From positions 1-36,646 of IMG/VR virus record IMGVR_UViG_3300042882_001561: a stretch of 36,646 nt of DNA. The stretch is one strand, 5' to 3'. Source of the DNA: a virus. Position 1 is the first letter of the stretch. Every line of letters begins with the position of its first letter. The notes under the pieces were generated by a model. That model worked only from the letters and a program-made list of their open reading frames with translations, ran no database searches and was not told the origin of the DNA. Positions 3,630-32,927 of the stretch are shown one piece after another. A program made the position numbers and the translations under genes.

Positions 3630-4127
3630 ATGGAAAATTTGCAGCGACAACACCAACAGATGAATCCCCAGAACGTGGGGACGGGAGACGCGAATGAGAA
3701 GTTTTATTTCAATTACAAAATTAGCCTTGGTGCATCCCAGCAAGTGGGAAGTGGAGGCTGCATGATTGTCATTAGAAGCGGTGATAGAACAAGCCCAATC
3801 CTTACCGATTGTCGGCTAAGTCCCAAAGCAAACGCAATACTGGCTTTTATTCTTTCCCACCCTACCCCGTGGGTTTTAAAAGTTAACGATCTTTGGCATT
3901 CAGAAACAGATGATAACTCGGTATTAGGGAGTTTGTCCGAGCTTTACAAAACGGATTATTTACTATTTTTCCGGTGGCAACTTCTGAGTGGTAATTGGGT
4001 AGAGGAGTATTTGATTTTTGAATCCTTGAGATTGAAAAATGACTACCTTCGAGTCCTTCCAGATGATAGGAAGCAATACATTTGTGACCCTCGCCCACCA
4101 GCTTATAAACGATTGGGGGGAGCATGA
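3630..4127 (+). CDS. Winged-helix-like protein upstream of replication initiator
   Basis: The ATG at 3630 (MENLQRQHQQMNPQNVG) has AAGGG about 9 bases upstream; a GTG at 3579 would add 17 residues but its purine stretch is too close. The N-terminal third is polar; then ILTDCRLSPKANAILAFIL, HPTPWVLKVNDLW and a following helix pair look like a phage-type winged helix (as in replication O-like or HTH proteins). Its TGA overlaps the ATG of the initiator gene (ATGA). A role as DNA-binding partner in replication or control is inferred. About 165 aa. Confidence 0.6.
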   Translation: MENLQRQHQQMNPQNVGTGDANEKFYFNYKISLGASQQVGSGGCMIVIRSGDRTSPILTDCRLSPKANAILAFILSHPTPWVLKVNDLWHSETDDNSVLGSLSELYKTDYLLFFRWQLLSGNWVEEYLIFESLRLKNDYLRVLPDDRKQYICDPRPPAYKRLGGA

Positions 4128-5317: not shown

Positions 5318-5319
5318 AA

Positions 5320-5901
5320 ATGGATATTCAAACACTGACCCGAAACATTCAAGACCTTCAAGCGCACTTTACTCATCTTCAAAAACTATCTCCTCGGACT
5401 CTCAAGGCGTGGTGTGTCCACTTCTCGGAAAACTTATCGGAACAGGAGTTGGAGTTAGCTGTTGACCGGGCATTGATTAACTACGGCTGCAATCACGACC
5501 TCTCAGCTAAGGAATTAGTTGAACTAGCTAAGGGTTCCGATAAAGCAGCAATCCTAGACCGATGGGCAAAAACTTTAGAGGCGATCGCCAATAACTCCCT
5601 AGTCGATTTGGATGATGCAACTCAATACGCGATAACCCAGTTGGGCGGCATGAGTTACCTCGGATCACTCCCGAACGCCACACTGCAAGGTTTGAGCTTC
5701 CCTTTTCAGGCTCACGTTCAAAAATATTGGCAATCACCCCCCAAAGAATTTGAGCGCCCGGTTGTGATTATCCCCCGTGAACAAATCGAGTTCAAGCCCG
5801 ATGGAAAAAAACCGCAGCTTTCAGAGGAACAACGGGTAAAAAATCAGGAATTTCTAAATAACCTGATCGCCACAAAAATGAGTAAAAACGGAGCGAAATA
5901 A
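5320..5901 (+). CDS. Putative phage helicase loader
   Basis: 193 aa from the ATG at 5320, two bases after the initiator stop and preceded by AGGCAGG. The open frame extends further upstream but only inside the previous gene. The N-terminal 70 residues (LSPRTLKAWCVHFSENLSEQ, then ELELAVDRALINYG) form a small helical domain with the W-x-L-x-x-L-x-x-A pattern of SPP1 G39P-like helicase loaders. The C-terminus is polar and basic, ending NNLIATKMSKNGAK. The position between initiator and DnaB, with a TAATG overlap to dnaB, fits a loader. This is inferred from context and pattern; no ATP-binding motif is present, as in the G39P type. Confidence 0.55.
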   Translation: MDIQTLTRNIQDLQAHFTHLQKLSPRTLKAWCVHFSENLSEQELELAVDRALINYGCNHDLSAKELVELAKGSDKAAILDRWAKTLEAIANNSLVDLDDATQYAITQLGGMSYLGSLPNATLQGLSFPFQAHVQKYWQSPPKEFERPVVIIPREQIEFKPDGKKPQLSEEQRVKNQEFLNNLIATKMSKNGAK

Positions 5902-8504
5902 TGGAAGCAGTAATCATGCAAAACGTCGAGGCTGAGGAAGCTGTTTTAGGAGCCATTCTCTTAGACCCCGAAGCTATGGGGAGAATTGCAGAAACATTAG
6001 AACCTAAGTCTTTTAGCTTGCGATCGCATCAAACGATTTATAAGGCAGCTTTAGCTTTATATTCCGAGGGAGTAACACCGGATTTGATGACCGTCACAAC
6101 TTGGTTATCCGATCAGAAATTACTTGAAAAAGCCGGGGGGCAATTAGGGTTAACCCGACTATTAGAGCGCACCGTTTCTGCCACAAACATCGATCAATAC
6201 GGTCTATTAATCTCGGATAAACAAACCCGAAGAAACCTAATTGAATCTGCTTACGAAATTATCAAACTAGCAGAAGATACCAGTCAACCTTTAGAGACAA
6301 TTCTCCAAAAGTCAGAGGAACAAATTGCTAATATTTCCCAATCAAAATCACAACAGGATTTAGTTTCGATTGGTGAAACTTTAATTGATACCTTTCAAGA
6401 AATTGAAGACCGGAGCGAAAGCAAGATTCCCCCCGGTGTCCCCTCTGGATTTTATGACCTCGATGCTATGACTGGAGGATTCCAACACACCGACTTAATT
6501 ATTGTGGCAGGAAGACCTGCAATGGGCAAATCGAGTTTGGCTTTAAATTTTGGATATAACATTGCCAAAAAAGGGCTACCCGTCGCGGTCTTCAGTTTAG
6601 AAATGTCTAAAGGTCAATTAGTCCAAAGACTATTATCGAGCGAAACCAAAATTGAAAGTACCCGCATTCGTTCAGGAAACATTCAGCAAGAGGAATGGGA
6701 ACCTTTGACAACCGCAATTAGTTCCTTAGCAGAATTACCGATTTATATTGACGACACCTCGAATATTACCATCACCGAAATGCGTTCTGAAGCTCGAAGA
6801 TTGCAAGCCGATAACGATGGAAAGTTAGGCTTAATTCTAATAGATTATCTGCAATTAATGGACGGAGGAAGTGATAATCGGGTGCAAGAATTGTCAAGAA
6901 TTACACGGGGATTAAAGGGAATGGCAAAAGATTTAAACGTTCCTGTAGTTGTCCTGTCTCAGTTGAGTCGTAGCGTCGAACAGCGCACCAATAAACGCCC
7001 AATGCTTTCAGACTTGAGAGAATCGGGTTGCTTGACGGGTGACAGCTTAATCACATTAGCAGATACTGGATTACAAGTACCTATTAAGGAATTGGTAGGT
7101 AAATCAGGGTTTCTAGTTTGGGCATTAAACGAAGAAACAATGAAACTGGAAAGTGCGGTTGTTAGCAATGCTTTTTCTACTGGGGTCAAACCTGTATTTA
7201 CCCTAACAACTCGGCTAGGACGAAAAATTAAGGCAACTGCCAATCACAAATTCTTGACAATTCAGGGTTGGAAAAGACTGGATGAATTAAGTCCTAAACA
7301 GCATATATGTTTGCCAAGACATTTATCGACCGAGGGTAAACAAACTATGACTCATTCAGAGGTTGCATTGTTAGGACATTTAATAGGTGATGGTTGTACG
7401 TTGCCACGGCATACCATCCAATACACAACCAGGGAAATTGATTTGGCTGAAAACGTTGTGTTGATGACTAAACAATTATTTGGAGACACTATTGTCCCCA
7501 GAATTTCCCCTGAGCGCAACTGGTATCAGGTTTACTTACCAGCCAAACAACGATTAACTCACGGTGTCAGAAACCCTATAGCTAAATGGCTGGATTCTCT
7601 CGGAGTTTTTGGATTAAGGTCTTACGAAAAGTTTGTACCTCAAGATGTGTTTTTGCAGCCAAAAGAGTTGATAGCTTGCTTTTTAAGACATCTTTGGAGT
7701 ACAGACGGTTGTATTAAGTTGGTTGCAGGGAAAAAACCGAGACCCATTGCTTATTATGCAAGTAGTAGTCAAAAATTAGCGTCTAATGTCCAGACACTTT
7801 TATTAAGACTGGGTATTAATGCAAGACTCAAAAGAAACCCCCAACTCGGCAAGGGTAGAGATCAATACAATGTCATCATCACAGGCAAGATCGATTTAGA
7901 ATTATTTGCTCAAAATGTTGGGGCAGTAGGAAAATACAAATCAAGTTCACTACAAGAAATATCTGAACATTTTGAAGATTGCATTCATAATCCTAATAGA
8001 GATGTAATTCCCAAAGAAGTTTGGAGAAATCAAGTTGTACCCGCAATGCAAATTATTGGGATGACAACACGAGAAATACAATCTCACATGGGACAGTCCT
8101 ACTGTGGTTCTGGGCTTTATAAGGCAAATTTAAGTCGAGAGAGAGCTTTAAAAGTTGCCAATATTGTTCAATCAGATGAATTACTTGCTCTTAGCAATAG
8201 TGATGTTTATTGGGATGAAATAGTCTCAATCATCCCTACTGGCGAGGAGGAAGTTTTCGATTTAACGGTTCCTGGACTACATAACTTTGTTGCCAATAAC
8301 ATTGTTGTTCACAACTCAATAGAACAGGACGCGGACTTAGTAATGATGATCTATCGAGATGATTATTATAATCCCAACACTTCGGACGCGGGAATAGCTG
8401 AATTAATTTTAGCTAAACATCGCAACGGCCCCACCGGAACAGTAAAGCTATTGTTCGATTCTCAATTTACCCAATTTAAAAATTTAGTACGGGGGATGAA
8501 CTAA
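5901..8504 (+). CDS. dnaB: Replicative DNA helicase DnaB containing an intein
   Basis: 867-aa precursor. Residues 1-376 hold the DnaB N-terminal domain (EAEEAVLGAILLDPEAM) and most of the RecA-type motor, with Walker A GRPAMGKSS at about 204-212 and Walker B LILIDYLQLMD near 313. Residues 377-805 are an intein, and 806-867 complete the helicase (SIEQDADLVMMIYRDDYYN and AKHRNGPTG). After splicing the helicase would be 438 aa, a normal DnaB length. It unwinds the fork as a hexamer, loaded by the product of the upstream gene. The start overlaps the previous stop as TAATG, and the next gene starts directly after the stop. Confidence 0.97.
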   Translation: MEAVIMQNVEAEEAVLGAILLDPEAMGRIAETLEPKSFSLRSHQTIYKAALALYSEGVTPDLMTVTTWLSDQKLLEKAGGQLGLTRLLERTVSATNIDQYGLLISDKQTRRNLIESAYEIIKLAEDTSQPLETILQKSEEQIANISQSKSQQDLVSIGETLIDTFQEIEDRSESKIPPGVPSGFYDLDAMTGGFQHTDLIIVAGRPAMGKSSLALNFGYNIAKKGLPVAVFSLEMSKGQLVQRLLSSETKIESTRIRSGNIQQEEWEPLTTAISSLAELPIYIDDTSNITITEMRSEARRLQADNDGKLGLILIDYLQLMDGGSDNRVQELSRITRGLKGMAKDLNVPVVVLSQLSRSVEQRTNKRPMLSDLRESGCLTGDSLITLADTGLQVPIKELVGKSGFLVWALNEETMKLESAVVSNAFSTGVKPVFTLTTRLGRKIKATANHKFLTIQGWKRLDELSPKQHICLPRHLSTEGKQTMTHSEVALLGHLIGDGCTLPRHTIQYTTREIDLAENVVLMTKQLFGDTIVPRISPERNWYQVYLPAKQRLTHGVRNPIAKWLDSLGVFGLRSYEKFVPQDVFLQPKELIACFLRHLWSTDGCIKLVAGKKPRPIAYYASSSQKLASNVQTLLLRLGINARLKRNPQLGKGRDQYNVIITGKIDLELFAQNVGAVGKYKSSSLQEISEHFEDCIHNPNRDVIPKEVWRNQVVPAMQIIGMTTREIQSHMGQSYCGSGLYKANLSRERALKVANIVQSDELLALSNSDVYWDEIVSIIPTGEEEVFDLTVPGLHNFVANNIVVHNSIEQDADLVMMIYRDDYYNPNTSDAGIAELILAKHRNGPTGTVKLLFDSQFTQFKNLVRGMN
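7029..8315 (+). mobile_element. Full-length DnaB intein with LAGLIDADG endonuclease
   Basis: 429 residues inserted between RESG and SIEQD of DnaB, the insertion site of the Synechocystis DnaB intein. The N-terminal block is CLTGDSLITLADTG with catalytic Cys1; block B is KATANHKFLTIQGW; the C-terminal blocks are VFDLTVPGLHNFVANN and VVHN followed by Ser+1. Between them are the two endonuclease motifs LLGHLIGDG and LRHLWSTDG, so the homing endonuclease appears intact. All splicing residues are present, so it should splice and may still be mobile. Inteins like this move between hosts and phages by homing into intein-free dnaB genes. Confidence 0.93.
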
Positions 8505-19738: not shown

Positions 19739-19766
19739 TTTTTATTAATGTTTACTCATGGGATTA

Positions 19767-19797
19767 AACCCTCTAAATATTTTAGAGGGTTATTTTT
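19767..19797 (+). terminator. Terminator T2 (repeat family)
   Basis: AACCCTCTAAATATT/TTAGAGGGTT hairpin followed by ATTTTTTG. It faces the plus strand although no plus-strand gene ends here, which suggests a duplicated copy left when the cassette was inserted. Confidence 0.7.
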
Positions 19798-19817
19798 TGA
19801 TTATAGGGATAGGGATG

Positions 19818-19848
19818 TTGATTTTGTATCAGGGGGATACAAAATCAA
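19818..19848. promoter_or_regulatory. Perfect 13-bp inverted repeat upstream of the PcfJ-like gene
   Basis: TTGATTTTGTATC, a 5-base AGGGG centre, then GATACAAAATCAA. It lies 20 bases before the -35 box of the promoter at 19868. It could be a large operator or a stable hairpin; no T run follows, so a terminator is less likely. Confidence 0.65.
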
Positions 19849-19867
19849 AAATAATTAAAGTTATGGC

Positions 19868-19896
19868 TTGACATTCTAAGAAGTGGGGGTTAATGT
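19868..19896 (+). promoter_or_regulatory. Promoter of the PcfJ-like gene
   Basis: TTGACA (19868-19873), exactly 17 bases, TAATGT (19891-19896). The transcript would have a leader of about 75 bases before the ATG at 19978, with AGAGGA as ribosome site. Confidence 0.65.
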
Positions 19897-19977
19897 AGAG
19901 AAAAGGCAAGGGCAGAGTCCTGATTTCGCGGTCTAACTCCACCCTTGCAGTGAACAAGTCACTAAGAGGATCTTATC

Positions 19978-21948
19978 ATGTCACTCAACTCAAAAAAATC
20001 CCCGTTGGCAGTCCGAGTCCGTAATGCTTCTACTCTACAAGAGGCAATGTTTGAGGAAGGTGTTGACCTCGTAGCGGGTCAGTTAGAAATTATCTTCAAT
20101 ACCAATACCCGCGAACTAACGTGGGAAGAAGTCGAATACATACAATCACTTTTTACAGCACCTAATTTTCGATGGGAGTCAAAATCTTTTGATGTTGAAA
20201 TCTTTGAACAATTAATTAAAGATAAGTCGAGAGGGGCGCGGTTTATCGCCTATCAGGTAGTAGAAGCCGAGAAGCAAGACAAGCAATTTGACATGACACA
20301 AGCCCGAAAAGATTGGGCTGCAACCAAAGAGCTTCGGCGTTGGGCAAAGTCCCGAACTGAAGATTTAGCCCTTTGTGGGTTGGGCTATAAAAAAGTTTTA
20401 ACAACTAATGGGTGGGAACCACTATCTCGTCACGTCAACAGTTACACAGGCGAAAAAGAGGAAGACTGCGAACAAATCCGTTTTGCTGTGGATACCGGAA
20501 CGTTGTTAGGTTTGGGCATCCGCTTTGACTGGCAAGCCGAGCGATTTCTGAACCTCTACAAAGAGGTAATGAACTCCAAGAGGTCATGGGGTAGTTGCTA
20601 TCAGGTTGACCATGCGAAAGTATTGGCGATCGCAACAACGCCAAATTACAATAAACTCCCCTTGTGGGTTAAAAAGGCAATGGTCAACGCCGATGCCTTT
20701 GAAGTTAACTCCGACCGCATTGGCAATATTTGGCGACTTCCTGATTGTGCCCGCGCCTGGAAATGGTGTGGAAATTTGCCTAAGTCCATAGCCGAACGAG
20801 TGGGACGGATGCCTGTCAAGTCTCGGTTGTTGGCTAAATTTGCATGGGAAGAAATCATTGAAAAACGTAGTGTAGCGTGGCAATCTTTCAATAAAGTCAA
20901 TTGGACGGAGTGGGATGGAACCCCGATCAGTCGTCATGAATTGACAATGGAGTTCTGGGCTACATTTCGAGCTTATTCACAGGCGAACTTTGGCGAATTA
21001 TTACCCTATATTATGGGCGATGAAAAAGGAGAGTGGAGTCGCAGCAATTATTCCCGTGAGTATTACATCAAAAAACATTACCAAACTTTATTAGAAGTTG
21101 CCCTAAATCTTCCCCATGAGTCACTTCCATGGACTAAATTAAATCAGTCTAAAAACTCAGATCAATTATTACTGGGCTTAGTTGATTTCCTTTCTCCTCA
21201 GAAAGCCTGTGAACACCTGTTTGGTACAACAGGAAAAGCGACGGTCAAAGCCTTCCAAAATAGCTCCCCCACACCCCGTAAATGGGCGATGGTGTTGGTT
21301 AATGGGAACGCCGATCTACTTCAAAAGTATCTCAACTTACCTGAAGATTCCGTTATCGGGTTTCAGGAAGATACAATCCCCTTCCTGAAATCGTTGTCTT
21401 CTGAAGTGGCGTTACGGATGATTCAGACCACGACTTTTAAAGTACGGGGTGAAGTAAATAATGTCGATAGCAACTTAGTCCGTGATGCGGGCTATTTGTG
21501 GAATCAACTTAATAAAGATGGTGTAGGCGCACCGGAATTAGGGCGGGTGCGGTGTTGGCTAACTGTTCATGAAACACTGGCTAAAGAGTACGTCCGCCGA
21601 CAACCGGACTATGAGTTAAAGGTTAACCCCGACTTTAAACGGGTGCAGGGACTCTGTGCTATTGACGGCAGTTGGGAACTGGAAATCCCAACCTGTAACG
21701 CACAACTCAAGCTATGGGGTGAGCAACTATCTCACTGCGTTGGGGGGTATGGTCAAGCGGTCAATAACGGACGCTCGATTATCCTTGCAGTTCGGGAGCG
21801 AGGACGGGTGACTCACACGGTTGAGATGGTAAAACGCGAGTATGGCTACCACTGCCAACAGTTTTACGGGTATCGGAACAACCCCGCGCCCGATGAATTA
21901 AAAGGTGATGTCCTCTCGGCATTACAGCAAGCCAACCTCTGTAAATAA
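19978..21948 (+). CDS. PcfJ-like protein
   Basis: 656 aa. The C-terminal 100 residues contain the PcfJ signature: LWGEQLSHCVGGYGQAV (His586-Cys587), SIILAVRERGRVTHTVEM and QFYGYRNNPAPDEL. The PcfJ family was named from the Enterococcus pCF10 conjugation cluster and is common in phages and plasmids; its biochemical role is unknown. The N-terminal 500 residues are helical and Trp-rich with no recognisable domain, which is usual for this family. It has its own promoter and is followed by small coupled genes. Confidence 0.75.
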   Translation: MSLNSKKSPLAVRVRNASTLQEAMFEEGVDLVAGQLEIIFNTNTRELTWEEVEYIQSLFTAPNFRWESKSFDVEIFEQLIKDKSRGARFIAYQVVEAEKQDKQFDMTQARKDWAATKELRRWAKSRTEDLALCGLGYKKVLTTNGWEPLSRHVNSYTGEKEEDCEQIRFAVDTGTLLGLGIRFDWQAERFLNLYKEVMNSKRSWGSCYQVDHAKVLAIATTPNYNKLPLWVKKAMVNADAFEVNSDRIGNIWRLPDCARAWKWCGNLPKSIAERVGRMPVKSRLLAKFAWEEIIEKRSVAWQSFNKVNWTEWDGTPISRHELTMEFWATFRAYSQANFGELLPYIMGDEKGEWSRSNYSREYYIKKHYQTLLEVALNLPHESLPWTKLNQSKNSDQLLLGLVDFLSPQKACEHLFGTTGKATVKAFQNSSPTPRKWAMVLVNGNADLLQKYLNLPEDSVIGFQEDTIPFLKSLSSEVALRMIQTTTFKVRGEVNNVDSNLVRDAGYLWNQLNKDGVGAPELGRVRCWLTVHETLAKEYVRRQPDYELKVNPDFKRVQGLCAIDGSWELEIPTCNAQLKLWGEQLSHCVGGYGQAVNNGRSIILAVRERGRVTHTVEMVKREYGYHCQQFYGYRNNPAPDELKGDVLSALQQANLCK

Positions 21949-21959
21949 GGAAAACTCCA

Positions 21960-22052
21960 ATGACAAATCAAATCGTCTTAATCATTCTCGAATCTCTGTT
22001 AGGTGCTGGCTGTGGCATCCTCGCAGCTTACCTACTCCGCAAATTTAACTAA
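21960..22052 (+). CDS. Small single-pass membrane protein (30 aa)
   Basis: MTNQIVLIILESLLGAGCGI continues into LAAYLLRKFN: one hydrophobic helix with a basic C-terminal end. AAGGAAAA precedes the ATG. It starts 12 bases after the PcfJ-like gene. Small one-helix proteins are common in phages; the role is unknown. Confidence 0.6.
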   Translation: MTNQIVLIILESLLGAGCGILAAYLLRKFN

Positions 22053-22063
22053 AGGAAACCGCC

Positions 22064-22420
22064 ATGAATATTAACAACTACTCAGAAGTTCTCAAAAAAG
22101 CCTACGAATTAGGCAAGGCAACTCACCCCGATGCACCGAATCAGCATCATTGTGCATTTGCTAATAGCGTCGCCTGTTTCGTTACAGGAGCAAGTGGGGG
22201 ATATGGGGGGCCGTCAGTCCGAGAGCACGCTGCCGAGCGGATGGGGAGCCGTGAGAAACGAATGGGAGATTGGGGTTTTGTGGAATCGGTTAAATTCTGT
22301 GAGTCTCCCTGTTATGGGGAGTTGACGGAATTACACCACGTCCTATTCCGTGATGAATCCTGTTTTGATGATTCAGAGGGGGATTTGGAGGTTTTGCGGA
22401 GTCGATTTCAAAAAGCATAA
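22064..22420 (+). CDS. HNH-like protein, probably truncated by a frameshift
   Basis: 118 aa with AAGGAAA upstream. The C-terminal part reads CESPCYGELTELHHVLFR, then EGDLEVLRSRFQKA and stops. The ELHHVxxR...DLEVL arrangement is typical of HNH-type domains, in which a Cys-containing segment should follow DLEVL. That segment (FCGVDFKKHKNCLICG) is present in the +1 frame directly after, in the reading frame that ends at 22541. A single-base deletion or a programmed shift would explain this. As it stands, the product lacks the second metal ligands. Confidence 0.5.
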   Translation: MNINNYSEVLKKAYELGKATHPDAPNQHHCAFANSVACFVTGASGGYGGPSVREHAAERMGSREKRMGDWGFVESVKFCESPCYGELTELHHVLFRDESCFDDSEGDLEVLRSRFQKA

Positions 22421-22541
22421 GAACTGTCTGATTTGTGGAGTTAAACTTTTTCCACAAAACCGTTCAGGGTATTGCAAACAACATCGAGAGCAAAACCCTG
22501 AACGCAGGAAAAGAAAAACCCACAAATATAGACACAGATAA
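22350..22541 (+). CDS. Zinc-ribbon-like C-terminal part (probably split from the 22064 gene)
   Basis: In the +1 frame relative to 22064. The meaningful part begins near 22395 (FCGVDFKKHKNCLICGV, then SGYCKQHRE), giving CxxC and CxxH pairs spaced 12 apart, and ends with a basic tail RRKRKTHKYRHR. Starts near 22350 have no good ribosome site, which supports the idea that it is the detached end of the upstream gene. Confidence 0.4.
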   Translation: MMNPVLMIQRGIWRFCGVDFKKHKNCLICGVKLFPQNRSGYCKQHREQNPERRKRKTHKYRHR

Positions 22542-22546
22542 TCTTA

Positions 22547-22577
22547 AACCCTCTAAATATTTAGAGGGTTCTTTTTT
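22547..22577 (+). terminator. Terminator T3 (repeat family)
   Basis: Perfect palindrome from AACCCTCTAAAT to ATTTAGAGGGTT, then CTTTTTTT. Same family as T1 and T2 (see 19261 and 19767). Confidence 0.85.
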
Positions 22578-22620
22578 TGATTAATTTAGACTCAGTAAAA
22601 ATAATTCCTGATCCTCGATG

Positions 22621-22669
22621 ACTCGCCATTCCTGTCTATTTTTTAATTTATGGCGGGTTCGTTTTTAAG
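22621..22669 (+). terminator. Second terminator-like hairpin
   Basis: ACTCGCCAT pairs with ATGGCGGGT (9 bp, one G-T pair) around a 20-base T-rich loop, followed by TCGTTTTT. It lies between T3 and the Bro-N leader and further insulates that leader. Confidence 0.4.
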
Positions 22670-22692
22670 TAGGGGTCGATCCTGTCAAAAAT

Positions 22693-22701
22693 TGATATAA
22701 T
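22693..22701 (+). promoter_or_regulatory. Extended -10 promoter of the Bro-N gene
   Basis: TTGATATAAT (TGnTATAAT) exactly 8 bases before the leader hairpin at 22710, so the hairpin begins within a few bases of the transcript start. The same distance occurs at 25702-25716. Confidence 0.6.
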
Positions 22702-22709
22702 AAGGAATA

Positions 22710-22766
22710 CCCCCGCGACACTAGAAATGTCCGGGGGATGAGTCAACCTATAACGCAGGTCAACTA
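22710..22766 (+). ncRNA. Conserved structured 5' leader, copy A (Bro-N gene)
   Basis: Hairpin 22710-22737: outer stem CCCCCG/CGGGGG, a single bulged C, inner stem GACA/TGTC, and 7-base loop CTAGAAA. Then GAGTCAACCTA and AACGCAGGTCAACTA lead to the ATG. Copy B at 25716 has the same plan with different but still paired stem bases, so the structure is conserved by compensation. The AGGT of the ribosome site can pair with upstream ACCT, which could control translation. Could be a riboswitch, an attenuator or a protein-binding leader. Confidence 0.7.
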
Positions 22767-23549
22767 ATGCAAAGTATATCAGTTTTTGTTTTTGAGCAAA
22801 ACTCCCTTGATGTCGTAGTCATTGACGGACAGCCTTGGTTTAACGCTTCACAAGTTGCTAAGGCGTTGGGGTATGCAAATCCATCAAAAGCCCTACAGGA
22901 TAACGTTTCAGGTAAATATAACCAGCAGTTAGATTTAGGTAAACCAGGTAAAAGCCCGAACTTTATCAGTGAACCTGGACTTTATCAATTAATCATGCGG
23001 TCAAACCTCCCAACCGCCGAAAAGTTTCAGGAATGGGTTTTTGAGGAAGTCTTACCTTCTATCCGAGAAACAGGTAGTTATACCCACAAAAGAGCTATCA
23101 CCCCCCCGTCATCGTTTGACGCTTTGGAATACGCTAAAAAAGCCCTCTCATTATGCGGGTTAGAATCTCCCGTTGTGGAGTCATGGGGACTGGTTACACT
23201 CGCCTCTAAAATTGACACCGCAAACCGTGAGATTTATCTTGACGCTCAGAAATTAATCGCGTCCAGTATCGAGTTACCCGAAACCCTTTCAACCGTTACA
23301 GAGGTTTGCTCAGTATATGAGAGTGACGGCGTTAAAATGACAGCGCGAGATATGAATAAAATGCTTTGTAAACTGGGTTTACAGGTGTCAACTCGTGACG
23401 CTAAGGGGCAGATTCAATATCAACTCACGGAGTCAGGGGATGGGTTAGGGAAGTTAACTTTAACCTCTACCAGTGAGGGTAAAAACGTGGCTCAGTTAAA
23501 ATGGTATGCGAATAAGTTGATTCGAGCTATTGGTGATCGCGTCAAATAA
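22767..23549 (+). CDS. Bro-N domain antirepressor-like protein
   Basis: 260 aa. The N-terminal 100 residues form a Bro-N domain: DVVVIDGQPWFNASQVAKAL, then EPGLYQLIMRSNLPTAEKFQ and WVFEEVLPSIRETGSY, the classic end of this domain. The C-terminal part (about 185-260) contains a phage antirepressor-like region (KMTARDMNKMLCKLGLQVST, then KWYANKLIRAI). Such proteins bind DNA or repressors and help switch lysogeny to lytic growth. Expression is preceded by the structured leader A and followed by the terminator at 23563. Confidence 0.85.
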   Translation: MQSISVFVFEQNSLDVVVIDGQPWFNASQVAKALGYANPSKALQDNVSGKYNQQLDLGKPGKSPNFISEPGLYQLIMRSNLPTAEKFQEWVFEEVLPSIRETGSYTHKRAITPPSSFDALEYAKKALSLCGLESPVVESWGLVTLASKIDTANREIYLDAQKLIASSIELPETLSTVTEVCSVYESDGVKMTARDMNKMLCKLGLQVSTRDAKGQIQYQLTESGDGLGKLTLTSTSEGKNVAQLKWYANKLIRAIGDRVK

Positions 23550-23562
23550 TATCTATGTTGCA

Positions 23563-23586
23563 GCCCTCTTAATTGAGGGTTTTTGA
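23563..23586 (+). terminator. Terminator after the Bro-N gene
   Basis: CCCTC/GAGGG stem with a 6-base loop and TTTTTG tail. It covers the TTG at 23583, so the next gene must start at the ATG at 23616. Confidence 0.7.
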
Positions 23587-23615
23587 GTATTAAACAATTA
23601 AAACGGAGATTTACA

Positions 23616-24119
23616 ATGTATAACTATTCTGCTATGGAAGTCAGAATCAAAGCCCTAGAATCTGAGGTTGAGCATTTAAAATGTATTGCTCAAATCAATG
23701 AAGAACATTTTAAGATACAAACAACTCTATTTAACGAAACGATTAAAACCTTGAATAACAGTGATTCTGTAATAACTGACAGTAACAACATCAACGAAGT
23801 TGCGAACAATATTCATGCAAGTATGTCAGACGGAGATCACTATGATCCTCCGTTTACCTACAATGAAGCCTATCTCAAGTGCGAAGAAAAACATGGGGAC
23901 ATTTATCTTAGCGAAATAGATGATTTGCTTCATGCTGTTATTTTATATACTCTTGAGAAATTAAAAACCTATGCTATTGAGAGTCCAAACAACACCAATC
24001 TAGTTCGGATAAATATTGACATAGAACCCGATCTCTTAGCTCAACTGAAAATCACAGCAAAAGAATATAAGATATCCCTAGATAAAACTATCAGTCATAT
24101 TCTCAGAAAAGAGTTTTAA
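23616..24119 (+). CDS. Coiled-coil plus RHH-type DNA-binding protein
   Basis: 167 aa from the ATG at 23616 (MYNYSAMEVRIKALESEVEH), with GGAG upstream. Residues 1-40 look like a coiled coil for oligomerisation; a polar linker follows; the last 40 residues (VRINIDIEPDLLAQLKITAK, then EYKISLDKTISHILRKEF) are a strand, helix, turn and helix, the RHH fold. The arrangement suggests a DNA-binding protein that forms higher oligomers. Regulator of the neighbouring Bro-N or exonuclease genes is a guess. Confidence 0.65.
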   Translation: MYNYSAMEVRIKALESEVEHLKCIAQINEEHFKIQTTLFNETIKTLNNSDSVITDSNNINEVANNIHASMSDGDHYDPPFTYNEAYLKCEEKHGDIYLSEIDDLLHAVILYTLEKLKTYAIESPNNTNLVRINIDIEPDLLAQLKITAKEYKISLDKTISHILRKEF

Positions 24120-24185
24120 CAATTCCGTTTCGACACCCTCACAAAACTTGACAGTTGCACGCTCGGCTCTGATAATATTATTCAT
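24078..24185 (-). pseudogene. Possible N-terminal remnant of a phage antirepressor-like gene
   Basis: Minus-strand open frame of 35 codons, MNNIIRAERATVKFCEGVET, then ELLKLFSENMTDSFI. The NxIRAERATVKF start is like the first residues of some cyanobacterial antirepressor-like proteins, but the frame ends early inside the opposing RHH gene. A hairpin like those of leaders A and B lies just upstream (24213-24242), so this may be the start of a third such gene cut off by rearrangement. Confidence 0.3.
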
Positions 24186-24212
24186 GTGGCTATTTCCTAA
24201 TTAATAGTTACC

Positions 24213-24242
24213 TCCCCTGGGTATTTCCGTACCGCGAGGGGA
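24213..24242 (-). ncRNA. Degenerate third leader hairpin (minus strand)
   Basis: Read on the minus strand: TCCCCT/AGGGGA outer stem, an internal loop with extra C, inner stem GGTA/TACC and loop CGGAAA. The plan and the GGAAA loop match leaders A and B, but the downstream conserved bases and the TATAAT at a fixed distance are missing. Confidence 0.35.
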
Positions 24243-24334
24243 TTTATTAATTGCATCTTATTTATTGGGGATGTCCAAATGCTAACGTTCAAATATTGTG
24301 ATAAAATAGAAAGACAACACAAGGCACAATACTA

Positions 24335-24979
24335 ATGAAATACTATTTTGATACCGAATTTATTGAAGACGGAAAGACCATCGATCTAATCTCCATCGGA
24401 ATCGTTGCAGCCGATGGTAGAGAATATTATGCTATTAATGAAGATTGTGATTTTTCCAAAGCTAGTGACTGGGTTAAAGAAAATGTAATTAAGAAATTAC
24501 AGGAGAAATATCCCCAACCGCCGTGGGAAAATGGCTCTTTAGATAAGTGGGAAAAATCAAAGTCATGGAAACCTAAAAGTCAAATTAAAGAAGATGTCGC
24601 TTTATTCCTTGGTTGTCGCCATTCTTTTTATATTCCTAACTCTAAAAACTGGATTGAAAAACAATATTGGAAACTTCCTTTTGTAAACATAGAAACTAAA
24701 GTTGAATACATATTAGAAAAAGACACACCCAAACCAGAAATTTGGGCTTATTATGCCGATTATGATTGGGTTGCCTTTTGTCAATTGTTTGGCACTATGA
24801 TGGATTTACCAAAAGGTTTCCCCATGTACTGCCGAGACATAAAACAACTCTGTGATGAACTTGGCAACCCCAAGTTACCAGAACAAGGGAAAGGAGAGCA
24901 TAACGCTTTAGAAGATGCTAGATGGAACAGAAACGCCTATTTGTGGTTAAGAAATTATCAAATTAATGGAGTCCAATGA
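24335..24979 (+). CDS. DnaQ-like 3'-5' exonuclease (Rv2179c type)
   Basis: 214 aa. MKYYFDTEFIEDGKTIDLIS gives the ExoI motif (DTEF, metal ligands Asp6 and Glu8); YYADYDWVAFCQLFG is ExoII; GEHNALEDARWN is ExoIII, with the His and Asp of the DEDDh type. The length and the D-x-E-F-x-E-D-G start are typical of the phage/Mycobacterium Rv2179c-like exoribonucleases, which trim single-stranded 3' ends. It may process RNA or DNA. Its stop overlaps the next gene (ATGA). Confidence 0.85.
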   Translation: MKYYFDTEFIEDGKTIDLISIGIVAADGREYYAINEDCDFSKASDWVKENVIKKLQEKYPQPPWENGSLDKWEKSKSWKPKSQIKEDVALFLGCRHSFYIPNSKNWIEKQYWKLPFVNIETKVEYILEKDTPKPEIWAYYADYDWVAFCQLFGTMMDLPKGFPMYCRDIKQLCDELGNPKLPEQGKGEHNALEDARWNRNAYLWLRNYQINGVQ

Positions 24980-25479
24980 TAAAACAAATAACCGGATTTA
25001 CAAGACAAGAGGCAATTCAGTTAACTAACTGCACATCAAGCCGAATTGCTTACCTAGAAAAGATAGGGTTAGTAATTCCAACACGTCACGGAACAATTGG
25101 TGGCAAACCCACGGTTATATTTAGCTATGGGCAACTATTGGGGATTCAAGCTGTTCGGGAATTAAGGCTAGAGGAAGTACCATTGTTAACGGTAAAAAGA
25201 CTTGTCACCTTTTTAGAAAATGCCAATCATGCTGATATTTCAAAAGATAAATTATTGATCGCAATGAACGAAGATATTTTCTGGGTTCAAAATGATTGGT
25301 CTGATTTTGCCACAAATATGCCAAAAAGTCTCAAGAAAGCCAGTAAGGAAAACAAGAATATTTCTTGGTACACATTGATAGTAATTCCAATTGGAGATAT
25401 TATTAATGCGATTTTTAATATGGCTAAAAATTCAGAAGCAATTAATCTTCAGGATTTTCAACAAAGGATTAATAATTAA
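24976..25479 (+). CDS. MerR-like regulator
   Basis: 167 aa. ITGFTRQEAIQLTNCTSSRI, then AYLEKIGLVIPTRH and FSYGQLLGIQAVRELRLEEV follow the order of a MerR-type winged helix (helix-turn-helix with the Y-x-x-G-L-V wing). The C-terminal half has no known ligand domain and may contact other proteins. ATGA overlap with the exonuclease shows coupling. Regulates unknown targets; the leader B promoter is downstream. Confidence 0.65.
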   Translation: MIKQITGFTRQEAIQLTNCTSSRIAYLEKIGLVIPTRHGTIGGKPTVIFSYGQLLGIQAVRELRLEEVPLLTVKRLVTFLENANHADISKDKLLIAMNEDIFWVQNDWSDFATNMPKSLKKASKENKNISWYTLIVIPIGDIINAIFNMAKNSEAINLQDFQQRINN

Positions 25480-25701
25480 GCAATATCAATCCTAGCTAAT
25501 TAATTAACTCCCTGCTCTCAACTTTCCTAATTCTTGTGGGTGATACAACATTAACTCTTTAAATTGTTAGTAAATATCTTTCTGTGTTTTTAAATCTTTA
25601 AATTTATCCTCTAAACATGGAACTGTGTTTTTTATGATATTAACCAACTGTGGAGACAGATTGAATCGCTTGGTATTTATTTCAATATAGATATAATTTG
25701 T
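25480..25701. other. AT-rich intergenic region
   Basis: No convincing gene on either strand. On the minus strand a stretch reads as a fragment (FNLSPQLVNIIKNTVPCLED) without a good start and with a stop after about 20 further codons; I regard it as noise or a decayed gene. The right end holds the promoter of the PP-loop gene. Confidence 0.3.
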
Positions 25702-25707
25702 TATAAT
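25699..25707 (+). promoter_or_regulatory. Extended -10 promoter of the PP-loop gene
   Basis: TGTTATAAT, a TGnTATAAT extended -10 exactly 8 bases before the leader hairpin (25716), as at 22693. Confidence 0.6.
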
Positions 25708-25715
25708 AAAAAAGT

Positions 25716-25778
25716 ATCCCCACAGCACCGGAAATGCTTGGGGATTGAGTCAACCTAACACTAAAACGCAGGTCAACT
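25716..25778 (+). ncRNA. Conserved structured 5' leader, copy B (PP-loop gene)
   Basis: Hairpin 25716-25745: outer stem ATCCCCA/TGGGGAT, single bulged C, inner stem AGCA/TGCT and 7-base loop CCGGAAA. The downstream TGAGTCAACCTA and AACGCAGGTCAACTA match copy A; an 8-base insertion separates them. Base pairs differ from copy A at most stem positions but remain paired, strong evidence of a functional RNA. The ATG follows the AGGTCAACT directly. Confidence 0.7.
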
Positions 25779-26687
25779 ATGGCTATTATACCACTACTGT
25801 TAAACGGGATGTCTCATGTTATCCCTATATCGGGAAAAGATTCATTGGCGACGGCAATTGTTCAGTCGGTCAACGCACCAGACCTTGACTACCGCTATGT
25901 ATTTAATGACGTAGGGGCGGAACTTCCAGAAACCTACGAATGGATCAACAAAGTTGAGTTAAAGATGGGATGGGAGATTGAACGAGTTGGGGAAAGTATT
26001 GAGGATATAATTAAAAAATACAATGTCCTTCCATCGCGTCGGATGCGGTTTTGTACTTCCAGTGGGAAGATAAAGCCATTTGAAAAACTATTTAAAAAAC
26101 AGGAGTCCGTAATAGTCTATTACGGACTCCGTGCTGATGAACCGACTAGAGTGGGCTATATTCCCCATAGTAATATTGTCCCCAAATACCCGTTAAGAGA
26201 ATTAGGTATAACACTCCCTATGGTTTTGTCTATTTGTAATTCTCAAGGGTTAAAACCTCCCACTTTCTTCTGGCAGGCATTGTATAACCGAGTCTGTGAG
26301 GAGATGGCTAAACGATGCCCTTTATTTGACTGGAAAAACTGTATTTCCGAGATTGAATTTGATTTCTTGTTTGCAGGGAGAAGTCGATCAAATTGCTATT
26401 TCTGTTTCTTCCAACGGCAGTATGAATTTATTTGGTTAGAGGATGTTCACCCAGACTTGTTTGAGAATGCCACTAAATTAGAACAGTCTCACGGGAAAGA
26501 GGGTTATACATGGCTAAAGGAGTACAATTTACCTGATTTATTAAAACGCAAGGACGAAATCATTGATAAGCGGGTAAAACAAGTTTGTAAGCACATCGAA
26601 AACCGGATGAACAGTCAATTATTCGGTGGTATAGAAATCGACAACGAACTTGCTTTTACTGGGTGCGGTTTGTTGTGCGGGAAATAA
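25779..26687 (+). CDS. PP-loop (PAPS reductase-like) protein
   Basis: 302 aa. MAIIPLLLNGMSHVIPISGK continues DSLAT: the SGKDS motif (residues 18-22) is the PP-loop that adenylates or binds PAPS/ATP. FNDVGAELPETYEWI and RFCTSSGKIKP follow the usual strand and Cys pattern, and GRSRSNCYFCFFQRQYEF plus the terminal TGCGLLCGK provide cysteine pairs that may hold a metal or Fe-S cluster. Phage members are often called PAPS reductase-like and are thought to act in nucleotide or DNA modification, but the substrate here is unknown. It shares leader RNA with the Bro-N gene. Confidence 0.75.
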   Translation: MAIIPLLLNGMSHVIPISGKDSLATAIVQSVNAPDLDYRYVFNDVGAELPETYEWINKVELKMGWEIERVGESIEDIIKKYNVLPSRRMRFCTSSGKIKPFEKLFKKQESVIVYYGLRADEPTRVGYIPHSNIVPKYPLRELGITLPMVLSICNSQGLKPPTFFWQALYNRVCEEMAKRCPLFDWKNCISEIEFDFLFAGRSRSNCYFCFFQRQYEFIWLEDVHPDLFENATKLEQSHGKEGYTWLKEYNLPDLLKRKDEIIDKRVKQVCKHIENRMNSQLFGGIEIDNELAFTGCGLLCGK

Positions 26688-26706
26688 GAGAGGCTTAAAA
26701 TTGTAG

Positions 26707-26726
26707 CAGGTGGTTTTTACCACTTG
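26707..26726 (+). terminator. Hairpin after the PP-loop gene
   Basis: CAGGTGGT/ACCACTTG stem (8 bp, one G-T pair) with loop TTTT. No T tail follows, so the effect on transcription is uncertain. The next 180 bases hold no gene. Confidence 0.4.
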
Positions 26727-26836
26727 TTACAAAGTCTCAAAACAATCGCCATGAATAATTTGATTTGCATACATAATAATATTAGTTACCATTGCATTTT
26801 AATATTATAATACAAACCCAATATCTTCACCAATAA

Positions 26837-26870
26837 AAAACCCAACAATCAAAAAGATTCCTGGGTTAGT
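26837..26870 (-). terminator. Terminator of the leftward late operon
   Basis: On the minus strand AACCCAG...TGGGTT hairpin with a 17-base loop and a TTTT tail, just past the stop of the gene 26909-27310. It ends transcription of the structural genes. Confidence 0.6.
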
Positions 26871-26908
26871 ATCGTCCAATTTCATCAGTGTGCATCATTA
26901 TTATAACA

Positions 26909-29041: not shown

Positions 29042-31015
29042 TTATGCTCCTATTAATCCGTGAGTTGTCAAATCATCAATCAACGCTTTTACTCTTTCAG
29101 CTAATTGTGGAAGAGTGACGGTTGACGTGGCAAAAGTTGTGCGGGTTGCAGTTCCCGTTGGCGCTACCCATCCGGTTCTTCTAGTAGAAATAACCTGGGT
29201 TGCGTTTAAAGACAAAGCACCTCTGAAAAAGTTATTGGTAATATTTGAATCACCAAAAGACATCGTATTTGAGCCGTTTCCGGTAGCGTTACAACCAAAA
29301 ACGTTCTCATTGGTTGCGTTTTGGGTTCCTTTTGTCGATGCACCTATAAAACAAGAGTTGTTGGTAACAGAAATTTCTGTTACACCGTCAGACTGAAATC
29401 TTCCTGCATTATCACCAAAGGCGGAGCAGCTACTACCTGTGGTATTAGCCCTGAGTGAATAAGCACCAAAGGCGGAGCAGTTAGTGCCTGTGGTATTAGC
29501 CTGGAGCGAACCAGCACCAAATGCGGAGCAGTTAACCCCTGTGGTATTAGCCCTGAGTGAACTAACACCAAATGCGGAGCAGCTACTACCTGTGGTATTA
29601 GCCCTGAGTGAATAAGCACCAAAGGCGGAGCAGTTAGTGCCTGTGGTATTAGCCTGGAGCGATTCAACACCAAAGGCGGAGCAGTTACTACCTGTGGTAT
29701 TAGCCAGGAGCGAACTAACACCAACGGTCGTATTTGAACTTACCTCCCCTGCTCCCCTCCCGACAGGAATTAGATTATAGGAATTAGCACTTATGGTATC
29801 CGCAAAAATAGCCCCCGTAATTCCCAAGCTAGCCGCACGAATCGCACCCGTTGTGGGACTGGTAGAAGTTGTTGCACTGGTTGAAACTAAGTCACCTGTT
29901 ACAGTTCCACCGGACAAGGGTAGGTAAGCTGCGGGTAGTCGGGCAGCATTCAAGGTTCCGGTTGAAATATTAGAAGCATTTAAACTGGTTAATGCTTCTC
30001 CAGAGCCAACATAGCCAGTAGCAGTAACTGTTCCTACCACATCAAGTTTAGTAGTAGGTGTAGTTGTACCAATTCCAAGACTTCCCCCATTCAAATAAGA
30101 ATTTCCAGAAGCGGTGAGTGAAACAGTTGGTACGTTTACTGAACGAAGGGTCAAAGTTCCGATGTCATTTGTCGCGCTTGACCCCTGTAACTGAGCAACC
30201 GTAAACGCACCATTGGACACAGCAAAACCATTAAATTGATTGCTGCTGACGACAATAGCAACCCCCCCAACATTAATAGTATTTGCAAAAATAGCACCCG
30301 TAATTCCCAGGGACGCACCACGAATCGCGCCCGTAGTGGTAGAAGTTGATGCAGTGACACTGGTTGAAATCAAGTCCCCCGTTACTGTCCCACCCGTTAG
30401 GGGAAGGTAAGAATTAATATCAATTGAATAAGTCCCGTTCCCTGTTTTCTTGAGAAATCCTGGGGTGTCAGATAATGCCTGAATTGCAATTAATTCATTC
30501 CCTATACTATTAGTCGAAACCGCAGTTACTTGACCTTTGGCGTTAACAGTGACAACAGGAATAGCACTGACACTACCAAAACTGCCAACATTGCTATTGA
30601 CTGTCTGCAACGTCATCACACCCGAAACGTCAGCACTCCCATCGAAACCACTAATCGAACCAGTTATATCCCCCGTCGTTGAAATTGTCCGGGCATTTGT
30701 TAGTTTTAACGCCTCCCCCGCCGTTGCCGAGCTTGATATTTCAACATAAACAGAACCCGACCATCGGTAGGTTTTGTTGTTATCTTCGGTGACATAAATT
30801 TTGCCAGTCTCACCCGCAACCGGAAACGTTGCAAGGTTAGCAAAATTCAAGACATCATCAACATAGGATGGCAAAACCGATGCTGAAATTGTGCCAGTCG
30901 CGGCGTTAACAGCCGTTAAGATTGTATTATTGGAAGTTAATGATTTTGTGAAACTGGCAACCGTTGGATCGGTTTCAGCTGTAATCACATTCCTAATTAA
31001 TTGTCCAACGCCCAT
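29042..31015 (-). CDS. Tail fibre-like protein with repeats
   Basis: 657 aa. The N-terminus (MGVGQLIRNVITAETDPTVA) likely joins the baseplate. The middle holds two copies of a LPL(T/S)GGTVTGDL...LGITGAIFA(N/D)T unit, typical of phage fibres. Residues about 430-535 are 17-residue repeats ANTTG-NCSAFG, like the stalk repeats of trimeric fibres and adhesins. The end (TLPQLAERVKALIDDLTTHG) is helical. It probably trimerises and determines host binding. It lies in the leftward late operon, adjacent to other structural genes. Confidence 0.75.
   Translation of the reverse strand: MGVGQLIRNVITAETDPTVASFTKSLTSNNTILTAVNAATGTISASVLPSYVDDVLNFANLATFPVAGETGKIYVTEDNNKTYRWSGSVYVEISSSATAGEALKLTNARTISTTGDITGSISGFDGSADVSGVMTLQTVNSNVGSFGSVSAIPVVTVNAKGQVTAVSTNSIGNELIAIQALSDTPGFLKKTGNGTYSIDINSYLPLTGGTVTGDLISTSVTASTSTTTGAIRGASLGITGAIFANTINVGGVAIVVSSNQFNGFAVSNGAFTVAQLQGSSATNDIGTLTLRSVNVPTVSLTASGNSYLNGGSLGIGTTTPTTKLDVVGTVTATGYVGSGEALTSLNASNISTGTLNAARLPAAYLPLSGGTVTGDLVSTSATTSTSPTTGAIRAASLGITGAIFADTISANSYNLIPVGRGAGEVSSNTTVGVSSLLANTTGSNCSAFGVESLQANTTGTNCSAFGAYSLRANTTGSSCSAFGVSSLRANTTGVNCSAFGAGSLQANTTGTNCSAFGAYSLRANTTGSSCSAFGDNAGRFQSDGVTEISVTNNSCFIGASTKGTQNATNENVFGCNATGNGSNTMSFGDSNITNNFFRGALSLNATQVISTRRTGWVAPTGTATRTTFATSTVTLPQLAERVKALIDDLTTHGLIGA
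29410..29726 (-). repeat. 51-bp tandem repeats in the tail-fibre gene, arranged as a 153-bp duplication
   Basis: The anchor GCGGAGCAG recurs exactly every 51 bases at 29421, 29472, 29523, 29574, 29625 and 29676. Units at 29421 and 29574 are identical over 51 bases, and the other pairs separated by 153 are very similar, so a three-unit block was duplicated recently. There are no insertions or deletions, so the frame is kept (17 residues per unit). Confidence 0.9.
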
Positions 31016-31700: not shown

Positions 31701-32927
31701 ATGAAAGCCAGGTATCGGTACAGAATCTACCCAACAGACCAACAAAAGAGGCTGATGTCTCAATTGTTTGGTTGTTGTCGTGTAGTTTTTAACGATGCTT
31801 TAGCTTACTGTCAAGATCAACACCGTGCGGGTAATAAAAAACCTTCTAGCAGTGAACTCTCTAAAAGACTGACAGAACTCAAGAAAACCGAGGAAAAAGA
31901 ATGGTTAACAGAAGTTTCCTCTGTTCCCTTGCAACAGTCTTTGAGAGATTTAGAGCAGGCTTATTCTAACTTTTTTAAATCCTGTAAAGTACAGAGAAAA
32001 GGCAAAAAAGTTAAACCTCCCAAATTCAAAAAACGTAAATCTAAGCAATCAGCTAGATTTACCGATAACAGTTTTAAACTCTATCCTAATTCTGATTACA
32101 TTTGCCTAGCTAAAATAGGTGATGTAAAAGTAATTTGGAGCAGAAAATTACCCGCAGTTCCTTCTAGTGTTACCCTAATCAAAGATAGTGCTGATAGATA
32201 TTTTGTTAGCTTTGTAGTTGAGTTTAATCCTCAACAATTACCCCAGAATGGACAAAGTGTTGGAATTGACTTGGGAATCACTGATTTTGCTACGTTAAGT
32301 AATGGTGAAAAAGTTAAATCACCTAAACCTTTAAAGAAACAATTAAAGCGTTTAAGAAAATTACAACGTAATTTATCAAGAAAACAGAAAGGTAGCAAGA
32401 GAAGGGAAGTTACCAGAAAGAAACTGGCTAAACTTCACGCCAAAATTTCTGATACCAGAAATGATTTTTTACATAAACTTTCAACCCAGATTATTCGTGA
32501 GAATCAAACAATAGTCTTGGAGGATTTGAATGTTTCAGGAATGGTTAAAAATAGGAAATTAGCCCGTGCTATTTCTGATTTAGGTTGGCGTAGTTTTAGA
32601 ACTATGTTAGAAGCTAAGTCGGTCATGTACGGGCGGGATTTTCGAGTAATTGATAGATGGACTCCCACTTCTCAAATTTGCTCTTGCTGTGGTTTTCGCG
32701 GTGGCAAAAAAGAGTTAAATGTTAGAGAGTGGATTTGTCTTAATTGTGGAACTTCTCATGATCGAGATGTTAATGCTGCAATTAATATTAAAGTCGCCGG
32801 AGGACTTTCGGAGACTTTAAACGGACGTGGAGAGAAGGTCAGTCTTTCTGTAAAGAAAGCACATCTCGGCGAAGCGTCAACCCGTCCAGAATTTCAGCAG
32901 TTGTCAATCTTTGATTTGTTGAAATAG
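31701..32927 (+). CDS. tnpB: TnpB RNA-guided endonuclease
   Basis: 408 aa. Helical N-terminus MKARYRYRIYPTDQQKRLMS, then a RuvC domain with Asp190 (VGIDLGITDFA), Glu274 (VLEDLNVSGM) and the terminal Asp pair 354/356 (SHDRDVNAAINI), all three catalytic positions present. The zinc finger cysteines are C327-C330 (ICSCCG) and C346-C349 (CLNCG). TnpB proteins cut DNA guided by an RNA made from the right end of their own element, next to a short target motif, and so help the element persist. Both catalytic and zinc residues are intact, so this copy is probably active. Confidence 0.95.
   Translation: MKARYRYRIYPTDQQKRLMSQLFGCCRVVFNDALAYCQDQHRAGNKKPSSSELSKRLTELKKTEEKEWLTEVSSVPLQQSLRDLEQAYSNFFKSCKVQRKGKKVKPPKFKKRKSKQSARFTDNSFKLYPNSDYICLAKIGDVKVIWSRKLPAVPSSVTLIKDSADRYFVSFVVEFNPQQLPQNGQSVGIDLGITDFATLSNGEKVKSPKPLKKQLKRLRKLQRNLSRKQKGSKRREVTRKKLAKLHAKISDTRNDFLHKLSTQIIRENQTIVLEDLNVSGMVKNRKLARAISDLGWRSFRTMLEAKSVMYGRDFRVIDRWTPTSQICSCCGFRGGKKELNVREWICLNCGTSHDRDVNAAINIKVAGGLSETLNGRGEKVSLSVKKAHLGEASTRPEFQQLSIFDLLK

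Follow-up and report, generated by a model that had tools for sequence, protein, structure and literature searches.

A conserved two-hairpin 5' leader, mostly on antirepressor-type phage genes, is a candidate translational operator

Why should two dissimilar phage genes begin with much the same folded RNA? The question is raised by a 36,646-nucleotide stretch of viral DNA (IMG/VR record IMGVR_UViG_3300042882_001561; hereafter the window), in which a Bro-N gene and a PP-loop gene each follow a promoter and a hairpin of similar design. The original prediction had proposed that both genes carry a structured leader RNA that serves as a shared control element. The two main copies, their surroundings, and a third copy are located as listed here, where R1 denotes a covariance model built from five copies and R2 a later round.

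22547 to 22570, plus strand: intrinsic terminator stem 5' of copy 1, AACCCTCTAAATATTTAGAGGGTT then CTTTTTTTGA
22693 to 22701, plus strand: extended -10 promoter of copy 1, TGATATAAT, with TATAAT at 22696 to 22701 (sequence, family statistics)
22709 to 22769, plus strand: leader of copy 1 (sequence; models R1/R2)
22709 to 22738, plus strand: hairpin 1 of copy 1, first pair at 22710; CCCCCG, bulged C (22716), GACA, loop CTAGAAA, TGTC, CGGGGG
22741 to 22765, plus strand: hairpin 2 of copy 1; AGU-CA-ACCU, loop AUAACGC, AGGU-CA-ACU, with the Shine-Dalgarno sequence AGGU at 22757 to 22760
22767 to 23549, plus strand: Bro-N antirepressor-type gene after copy 1 (PF02498, E 9.5e-26; PHROG anti-repressor Ant)
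24183 to 24242, minus strand: third, diverged leader; hairpin 1 with bulged C, hairpin 2 CUAU/AUAG (R2 23.8 bits, E 6e-4, window searched with filters off)
25699 to 25707, plus strand: extended -10 promoter of copy 2, TGTTATAAT, with TATAAT at 25702 to 25707 (sequence, family statistics)
25716 to 25781, plus strand: leader of copy 2 (sequence; models R1/R2)
25716 to 25745, plus strand: hairpin 1 of copy 2; ATCCCCA, bulged C (25723), AGCA, loop CCGGAAA, TGCT, TGGGGAT
25748 to 25778, plus strand: hairpin 2 of copy 2; AGU-CA-ACCU, 13-nt loop, AGGU-CA-ACU, with the start codon directly after it at 25779
25779 to 26687, plus strand: PP-loop (PAPS-reductase-type) gene after copy 2 (PF01507, E 8.7e-9; phrog_424)

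The equal promoter spacing that had been predicted is present, with 8 bases from TATAAT to the first pair of hairpin 1 in copies 1 and 2 alike. Both copies also have the bulged C, the 4-bp inner stem, and the 7-base loop described originally, as seen in the sequence and with models R1 and R2, followed by TGAGTCAACCT...AGGTCAACT shortly 5' of the start codon. The two boxes said to be shared up to the ATG, TGAGTCAACCTA and AACGCAGGTCAACTA, match exactly in each copy. Allowing up to 2 mismatches, TGAGTCAACCTA alone is not rarer than expected by chance, and AACGCAGGTCAACTA with up to 3 mismatches is rarer than expected. The statement that most stem pairs differ between the copies was too strong: of the 10 comparable pairs, 4 have changed while remaining paired (G-C/A-U, C-G/U-A, G-C/A-U, and A-U/G-C). 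Single-sequence folding gave leader z values of -3.5 (copy 1) and -2.2 (copy 2), and such folding by itself is no more than suggestive of a leader structure in the window copies. The third leader precedes a truncated phrog_32599-type gene, and intact versions of this leader and gene are present in G002 (L113/L200) and G026 (L159/L202).

Additional representatives came from several kinds of search. Exact patterns recovered orthologous copies from virus contigs along with several new ones, including two in contig L007 and one in L033 that lies on a Bro-N gene and has a different first hairpin, and Planktothrix phage PaV-LD contributed a copy through a DNA search. The covariance-model search that had been suggested as a check, extended in rounds, recovered further leaders and gave 43 distinct members in all from PaV-LD, related virus contigs, and one Oscillatoria plasmid; these are distinct sequences rather than independent origins, as the members are related and derive partly from overlapping metagenomes. 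Model R1 recovered copies outside its training set (L007 1058-1124 at 70 bits and L009 at 54 bits) and next gathered diverged copies at 22 to 50 bits. Contigs holding relatives of the downstream genes yielded more copies with R1 and then R2. Because the KilA-N, family-A6, and phrog_32599 searches were queried with the protein and not the leader, leaders found before those relatives provide an independent check. Among 26 phrog_32599 relatives in virus contigs, a leader of this kind was read upstream of all 25 that have an intact 5' end. Some of these (e.g., L207) are too diverged for R2 and fold the same way. PaV-LD carries five leaders, three found by model and two by reading, and several copies can therefore reside within one phage.

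The boundaries of the family were also evident. The best background score for R2 was 18.5 bits in 327 kb of unrelated loci, and therefore the assignment of members near 21 to 24 bits (L206, L122 1212-1270, and window 24183-24242) rests also on their position and downstream gene. The two-hairpin leader is missing from the KilA-N genes of L125, L127, L128, and L131 to L134, and the KilA-N leader of L120 has a hairpin that lacks both the bulge and an accompanying hairpin 2. The KilA-N leaders of L125, L127, and L128 (5' of position 1501) carry another perfect hairpin of the GATAGTCTCAA...TTGAGACTATC type and no second hairpin. Among the plasmids tested, the one positive was Oscillatoria acuminata pOSCIL6304.01 (43379-43440, 36.4 bits); apart from this case, distant KilA-N, AntA, and Bro-N genes on several cyanobacterial plasmids have no such leader. 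Exact box patterns gave no cyanobacterial match among approximately 85,000 bacterial and archaeal genomes. A looser box pattern gave twelve matches, which lie in unrelated taxa and were attributed to chance on taxonomy alone, matches of looser viral patterns were mostly coding-sequence coincidences, and weak matches at CL131 77180-77245 and Calothrix plasmid 73152-73214 were read as chance. Upstream of Bro-N in Aphanizomenon phage CL131 (L049, approximately 1400-1500), we read a 5' hairpin that follows TAAAAT and, close to the start codon, a CCTG/CAGG hairpin, both of unrelated sequence, which are possibly an analogous leader.

Across the family, hairpin 1 lies at or near the 5' end and comprises 6 to 7 bp, one bulged C, 4 bp, and a loop of about 6 to 8 nt. 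Hairpin 2 is formed by a GU/AC clamp, an unpaired 2x2 loop, and a 4-bp stem, usually ACCU/AGGU, that holds the Shine-Dalgarno sequence, and it ends 0 to 3 nt 5' of the start codon. In alignment A11 (43 distinct rows), which was fitted to the model and hence leans towards the modeled structure, 94.2% of cells are paired and two-sided changes occur in 15 of 18 pairs. These include every pair of hairpin 1 (11 of 11) and of the inner stem in hairpin 2 (4 of 4). This inner stem is the pairing of ACCU with the AGGU at the start codon that had been pointed out originally, and the analysis of other members reveals what the original prediction missed, namely that the Shine-Dalgarno helix is a real second hairpin with two-sided changes of its own.

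Covariation statistics, another check that had been suggested, exceed both null models. The alignment has 127 two-sided cells compared with a shuffled mean of 38, and the shuffle null reached the observed level in 0 of 500 cases. In a tree-based null, which distributes the substitutions of each column over the tree at random, no replicate exceeded 12 pairs or 75 cells, compared with the observed 15 and 127 (0/500), and the proposed selection on RNA structure is thus upheld with the 43 members. Sliding the 3' partner by 1 to 3 columns lowers pairing in A11 to 29 to 53%. Furthermore, RNAalifold predicted 13 pairs from A11 when the structure was not supplied, all of them with two-sided changes. 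On this comparative sequence evidence, the structure and its conservation are established, and comparison likewise establishes its position, the presence of several copies in one phage, and the classes of gene that follow it.

Sequence conservation is concentrated in the bulged C, found in 42 of 43 members (T in L229), and in the start-site stem; the loop sequence of hairpin 1 varies freely. The GU/AC clamp of hairpin 2 is nearly invariant and offers little covariation signal, the exception being the AntA clade, in which UGU/ACA replaces AGU/ACU. Among members compared by hand, the 2x2 loop (CA/CA, AA/UC, UC/UC, AA/CC, and others) is never fully closed by standard pairs. The PaV-LD copy at 72110-72168 has GGAG as its Shine-Dalgarno sequence, and its opposite arm is correspondingly AUUCC. 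The G+C fraction of matched leaders is 0.43 to 0.57. A hammerhead-like reading of GATGAGTC was rejected, as the other copies do not conserve it.

Inverted repeats that follow a promoter might instead be bound as double-stranded DNA by a phage repressor. Such an operator would be appropriately placed near the transcription start, and direct GTCAAC repeats are found in part of the family. However, an asymmetric bulged C is unsuited to a dimeric DNA-binding site, as is a hairpin 2 loop whose length varies from 7 to 13-14, and the compensatory changes alter the would-be operator among copies in one phage. We regard a DNA operator as highly improbable.

The position of hairpin 1 relative to the promoter bears on its possible roles. 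In 35 of the 43 leaders, a -10 element that matches at 5 or more of 6 positions is located 4 to 14 nt 5' of hairpin 1, 30 of these 35 have the TGn extension, and the promoter is mostly TGnTATAAT. The distances form two clusters, at about 4 to 10 nt (mode 7) and at 13 to 14 nt, which places hairpin 1 at, or approximately 6 nt from, the predicted 5' end. The suggestion of a shared control element is supported, with two of its proposed forms being unlikely: a riboswitch, given that there is no conserved pocket sequence, and an attenuator. The sequence after hairpin 1 is TGAGTCAACC and has no T-run, and hairpin 1 is not among the terminator-like sites; a role as attenuator or intrinsic terminator is therefore unlikely.

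A 5'-terminal hairpin could also simply protect the message from 5'-end-dependent decay, with hairpin 2 only tuning translation and with neither a factor nor a signal involved. This passive role agrees with the location of hairpin 1 approximately at the expected transcription start in the clade that includes both main window copies and with its variable loop sequence, and a protein comparison described below made no candidate factor stand out. A stability hairpin, however, needs neither a fixed bulged C nor the persistent unpaired 2x2 loop and matched changes in the Shine-Dalgarno stem, and in one clade hairpin 1 begins about 13 to 14 nt after the -10 element. We therefore judge a purely passive leader to be unlikely, even if it deserves serious attention.

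Terminator-like hairpins are present 5' of copy 1, of both L007 copies, and of many KilA-N copies, and thus the unit can be a cassette of terminator, promoter, and leader. That the leader often lies within such a cassette on accessory genes had escaped the original prediction. Most window proteins outside of positions ~19,740-26,900 are 80 to 98% identical to those of PaV-LD, and this similarity suggests a Planktothrix-like host, whereas the leader-bearing segment itself mostly has no PaV-LD counterpart at that place. Other differences from PaV-LD were noticed in the window. A DnaB helicase gene at 5901-8504 has a LAGLIDADG intein, and PaV-LD ORF007 (3659-5398, 579 aa) is shorter and apparently without it. 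An OrfB/TnpB-type (Cas12f1-like TNB) gene at 31701-32927, possibly a recent insertion, lies between homologues of ORF045 and ORF046, which are neighbors in PaV-LD. At 29042-31015, a structural protein with tandem NCSAFGxxSLxANTTG-type repeats is much longer than its PaV-LD homologue, ORF044. Separately, some leader copies have no intact start codon or gene (L007 2101-2168, L248 1501-1558, L236 1405-1464, and L227 976-1045), and these are perhaps remnants of recombination.

The block of terminator, promoter, and leader might be kept mainly for exchange of accessory genes by recombination, with any RNA function being secondary. Consistent with this possibility, copies lie on accessory genes, including those of the window island that mostly lacks PaV-LD counterparts, the AntA-like PaV-LD ORF091 bears a Bro-N-type leader, and gene-less or broken copies exist (e.g., L007 2101-2168, L248, and window 24183-24242). 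Recombination homology favors sequence identity, but in these leaders the sequence changes and the pairing stays. Exchange of cassettes may hold as well, but it leaves the structure unexplained, and we find it quite improbable as the main explanation.

The genes that follow the leaders provide additional clues. Although the window pair had been described as two unrelated genes, the PP-loop gene is an exception within a family that is found mostly on antirepressor-type genes (Bro-N, KilA-N, and AntA-like). Bro-N genes carry the leader in window copy 1, L003, L033, and the Oscillatoria plasmid, and KilA-N genes do so in PaV-LD (ORF105) and many contigs. AntA-like genes with the leader include PaV-LD ORF091 and ORF099/100 and those of L179, L185, and L186, an assignment for which Pfam support is weak (E 1.7e-4, under the curated cut-off) and which comes partly from sequence likeness. 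The leader also precedes phrog_32599 genes, among them PaV-LD ORF068 and ORF028 (by reading), genes of an unnamed family in L007 and L110, the gene for a zinc-ribbon protein in L157 and L158, and an unassigned ORF in L009.

Our best reading, which we hold with somewhat more confidence than doubt, is that the two-hairpin 5' leader acts on phage regulatory genes as a translational operator. Transcription of each copy would start from its own promoter, and the message would begin at hairpin 1 or, in one clade, about 6 nt earlier. Hairpin 2 would then lie over the translation start, with the Shine-Dalgarno sequence usually paired to the upstream ACCU, so that ribosome entry would be restricted by default. 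We infer that control is exerted on translation and that its direction is repression. Hairpin 1, with a near-invariant bulged C fixed 4 bp below a loop of varying sequence, would be the docking site for an RNA-binding factor of the phage or the host, and binding would stabilize or open hairpin 2. As a result, several antirepressor-type genes of one phage could be silent together and released together.

Folding predictions at 20 C give the Shine-Dalgarno sequence an unpaired probability of 0.22 in the leaders versus 0.48 in 42 other PaV-LD genes, a comparison whose p-value is only a guide because the leaders are related. Over the whole region from -18 to +3, pairing in the leaders does not exceed that in other genes (unpaired 0.53 versus 0.46). 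The Shine-Dalgarno sequence is often located in the loop of hairpin 2 rather than in its stem in the phrog_32599 clade, and thus the constant feature is a hairpin on the initiation site and not one given pairing. Folding does not predict a full hairpin 2 in L206, and a few members (L122 1212-1270, L199) have a weak or no recognizable Shine-Dalgarno sequence.

A short mismatched hairpin on the Shine-Dalgarno sequence also resembles simple RNA thermometers, and such a leader might respond to temperature or, as a riboswitch, to a small molecule. However, the predicted opening of the Shine-Dalgarno sequence is nearly constant between 20 and 37 C for most members (0.02 to 0.03 for copy 1), and the leaders have variable loops, no strictly conserved single-stranded pocket, and no match to an Rfam riboswitch. 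Either sensor is scarcely probable.

In the translational operator that we favor, a putative trans-acting factor would take part, and the fixed bulged C makes hairpin 1 its likely binding site. When proteins of the Oscillatoria plasmid were compared with those of PaV-LD and the partial contigs to find a common factor, only the antirepressor-type gene recurred in most. With no other phage gene recurring in most of these incomplete records, no candidate stands out. A more far-reaching proposal, which we offer tentatively and consider rather doubtful, is that several antirepressor-type messages of one phage are recognized through their bulged-C hairpins by a single RNA-binding factor, which releases their translation together. 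This would constitute a post-transcriptional lysis-lysogeny regulon, a cis-encoded counterpart of sar/c4 that has spread among the phages of filamentous cyanobacteria and the phage-like plasmids of these hosts. The PP-loop and zinc-ribbon genes are out of place in a regulon made up of antirepressors alone.

The leaders might alternatively be bound by an antisense RNA acting in trans, as happens in the sar/ant system of P22 and the c4/ant system of P1; the target genes are of the same class, and a precedent is available (PMC12197685). Yet the loops differ among copies within one phage, neither box has a further match on either strand of the window at 2 to 3 mismatches except for one chance-level site, and the Rfam search gave no c4 match. 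We view an antisense target as very unlikely.

These findings add a strongly covarying RNA family to a group of ecologically important phages, those of Planktothrix and related bloom formers, in which gene control has received little study. Through their association with antirepressor-type genes, the structured leaders suggest that translation is one layer at which the cyanobacterial prophage switch is controlled, and the leader may set the timing of virus awakening in bloom-forming cyanobacteria. It also provides an annotation marker for little-known PaV-LD genes (ORF028, 068, 091, 099/100, and 105).

The original prediction did not recognize a known class, and the family is indeed absent from Rfam: the window and five family loci gave no gathering-level match, and a permissive scan of copy 1 returned only CyaR and psbNH, whose 17.9 and 10.9 bits, respectively, fall far short of the cut-offs for these families. 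We found no description of the element in the open-licence papers that were searched. P22 sar and P1/P7 c4 silence antirepressor translation by RNA in trans (PMC12197685). If they act as proposed, the leaders resemble c4 (Rfam RF01695) and sar in controlling antirepressor genes after transcription, at the ribosome-binding site; however, those RNAs are trans-acting antisense RNAs, whereas the leaders pair in cis within the message, occur in several copies per phage, and have another structure. T4 RegA operators control several messages of one phage at the initiation site and are A+U-rich and unstructured (PMC3014915). The leaders would share with them the control of several messages of one phage at the start site, but they have two hairpins with compensatory changes, and a RegA-type operator was rejected because the leaders are structured and lie within the G+C range given above. 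Structured 5' leaders have also been reported from cyanophages as the cis-regulatory motifs manA, wcaG, and PhotoRC-II, which are linked to metabolic or photosynthesis genes, with manA and wcaG in T4-like cyanophages (PMC2864571). These are different RNAs, and the Rfam scan did not match them in the leaders. Coat-protein operator hairpins of the MS2/PP7 type, from RNA phages, have one bulged A a few base pairs below the loop and are located at the start site. The leaders are similar in their single bulge a few base pairs below the loop and differ in that their hairpin with the bulged C stands at the 5' end, the start being covered by another hairpin. The T4 PeSL is a mobile block of promoter and stem-loop that is shuffled among accessory genes, and its stem-loop is a terminator beside an early promoter. 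The hairpins described here differ in lying within the 5' leader and reaching the start codon. Among these systems, the nearest in function is sar/c4, and the nearest in logic is T4 RegA.
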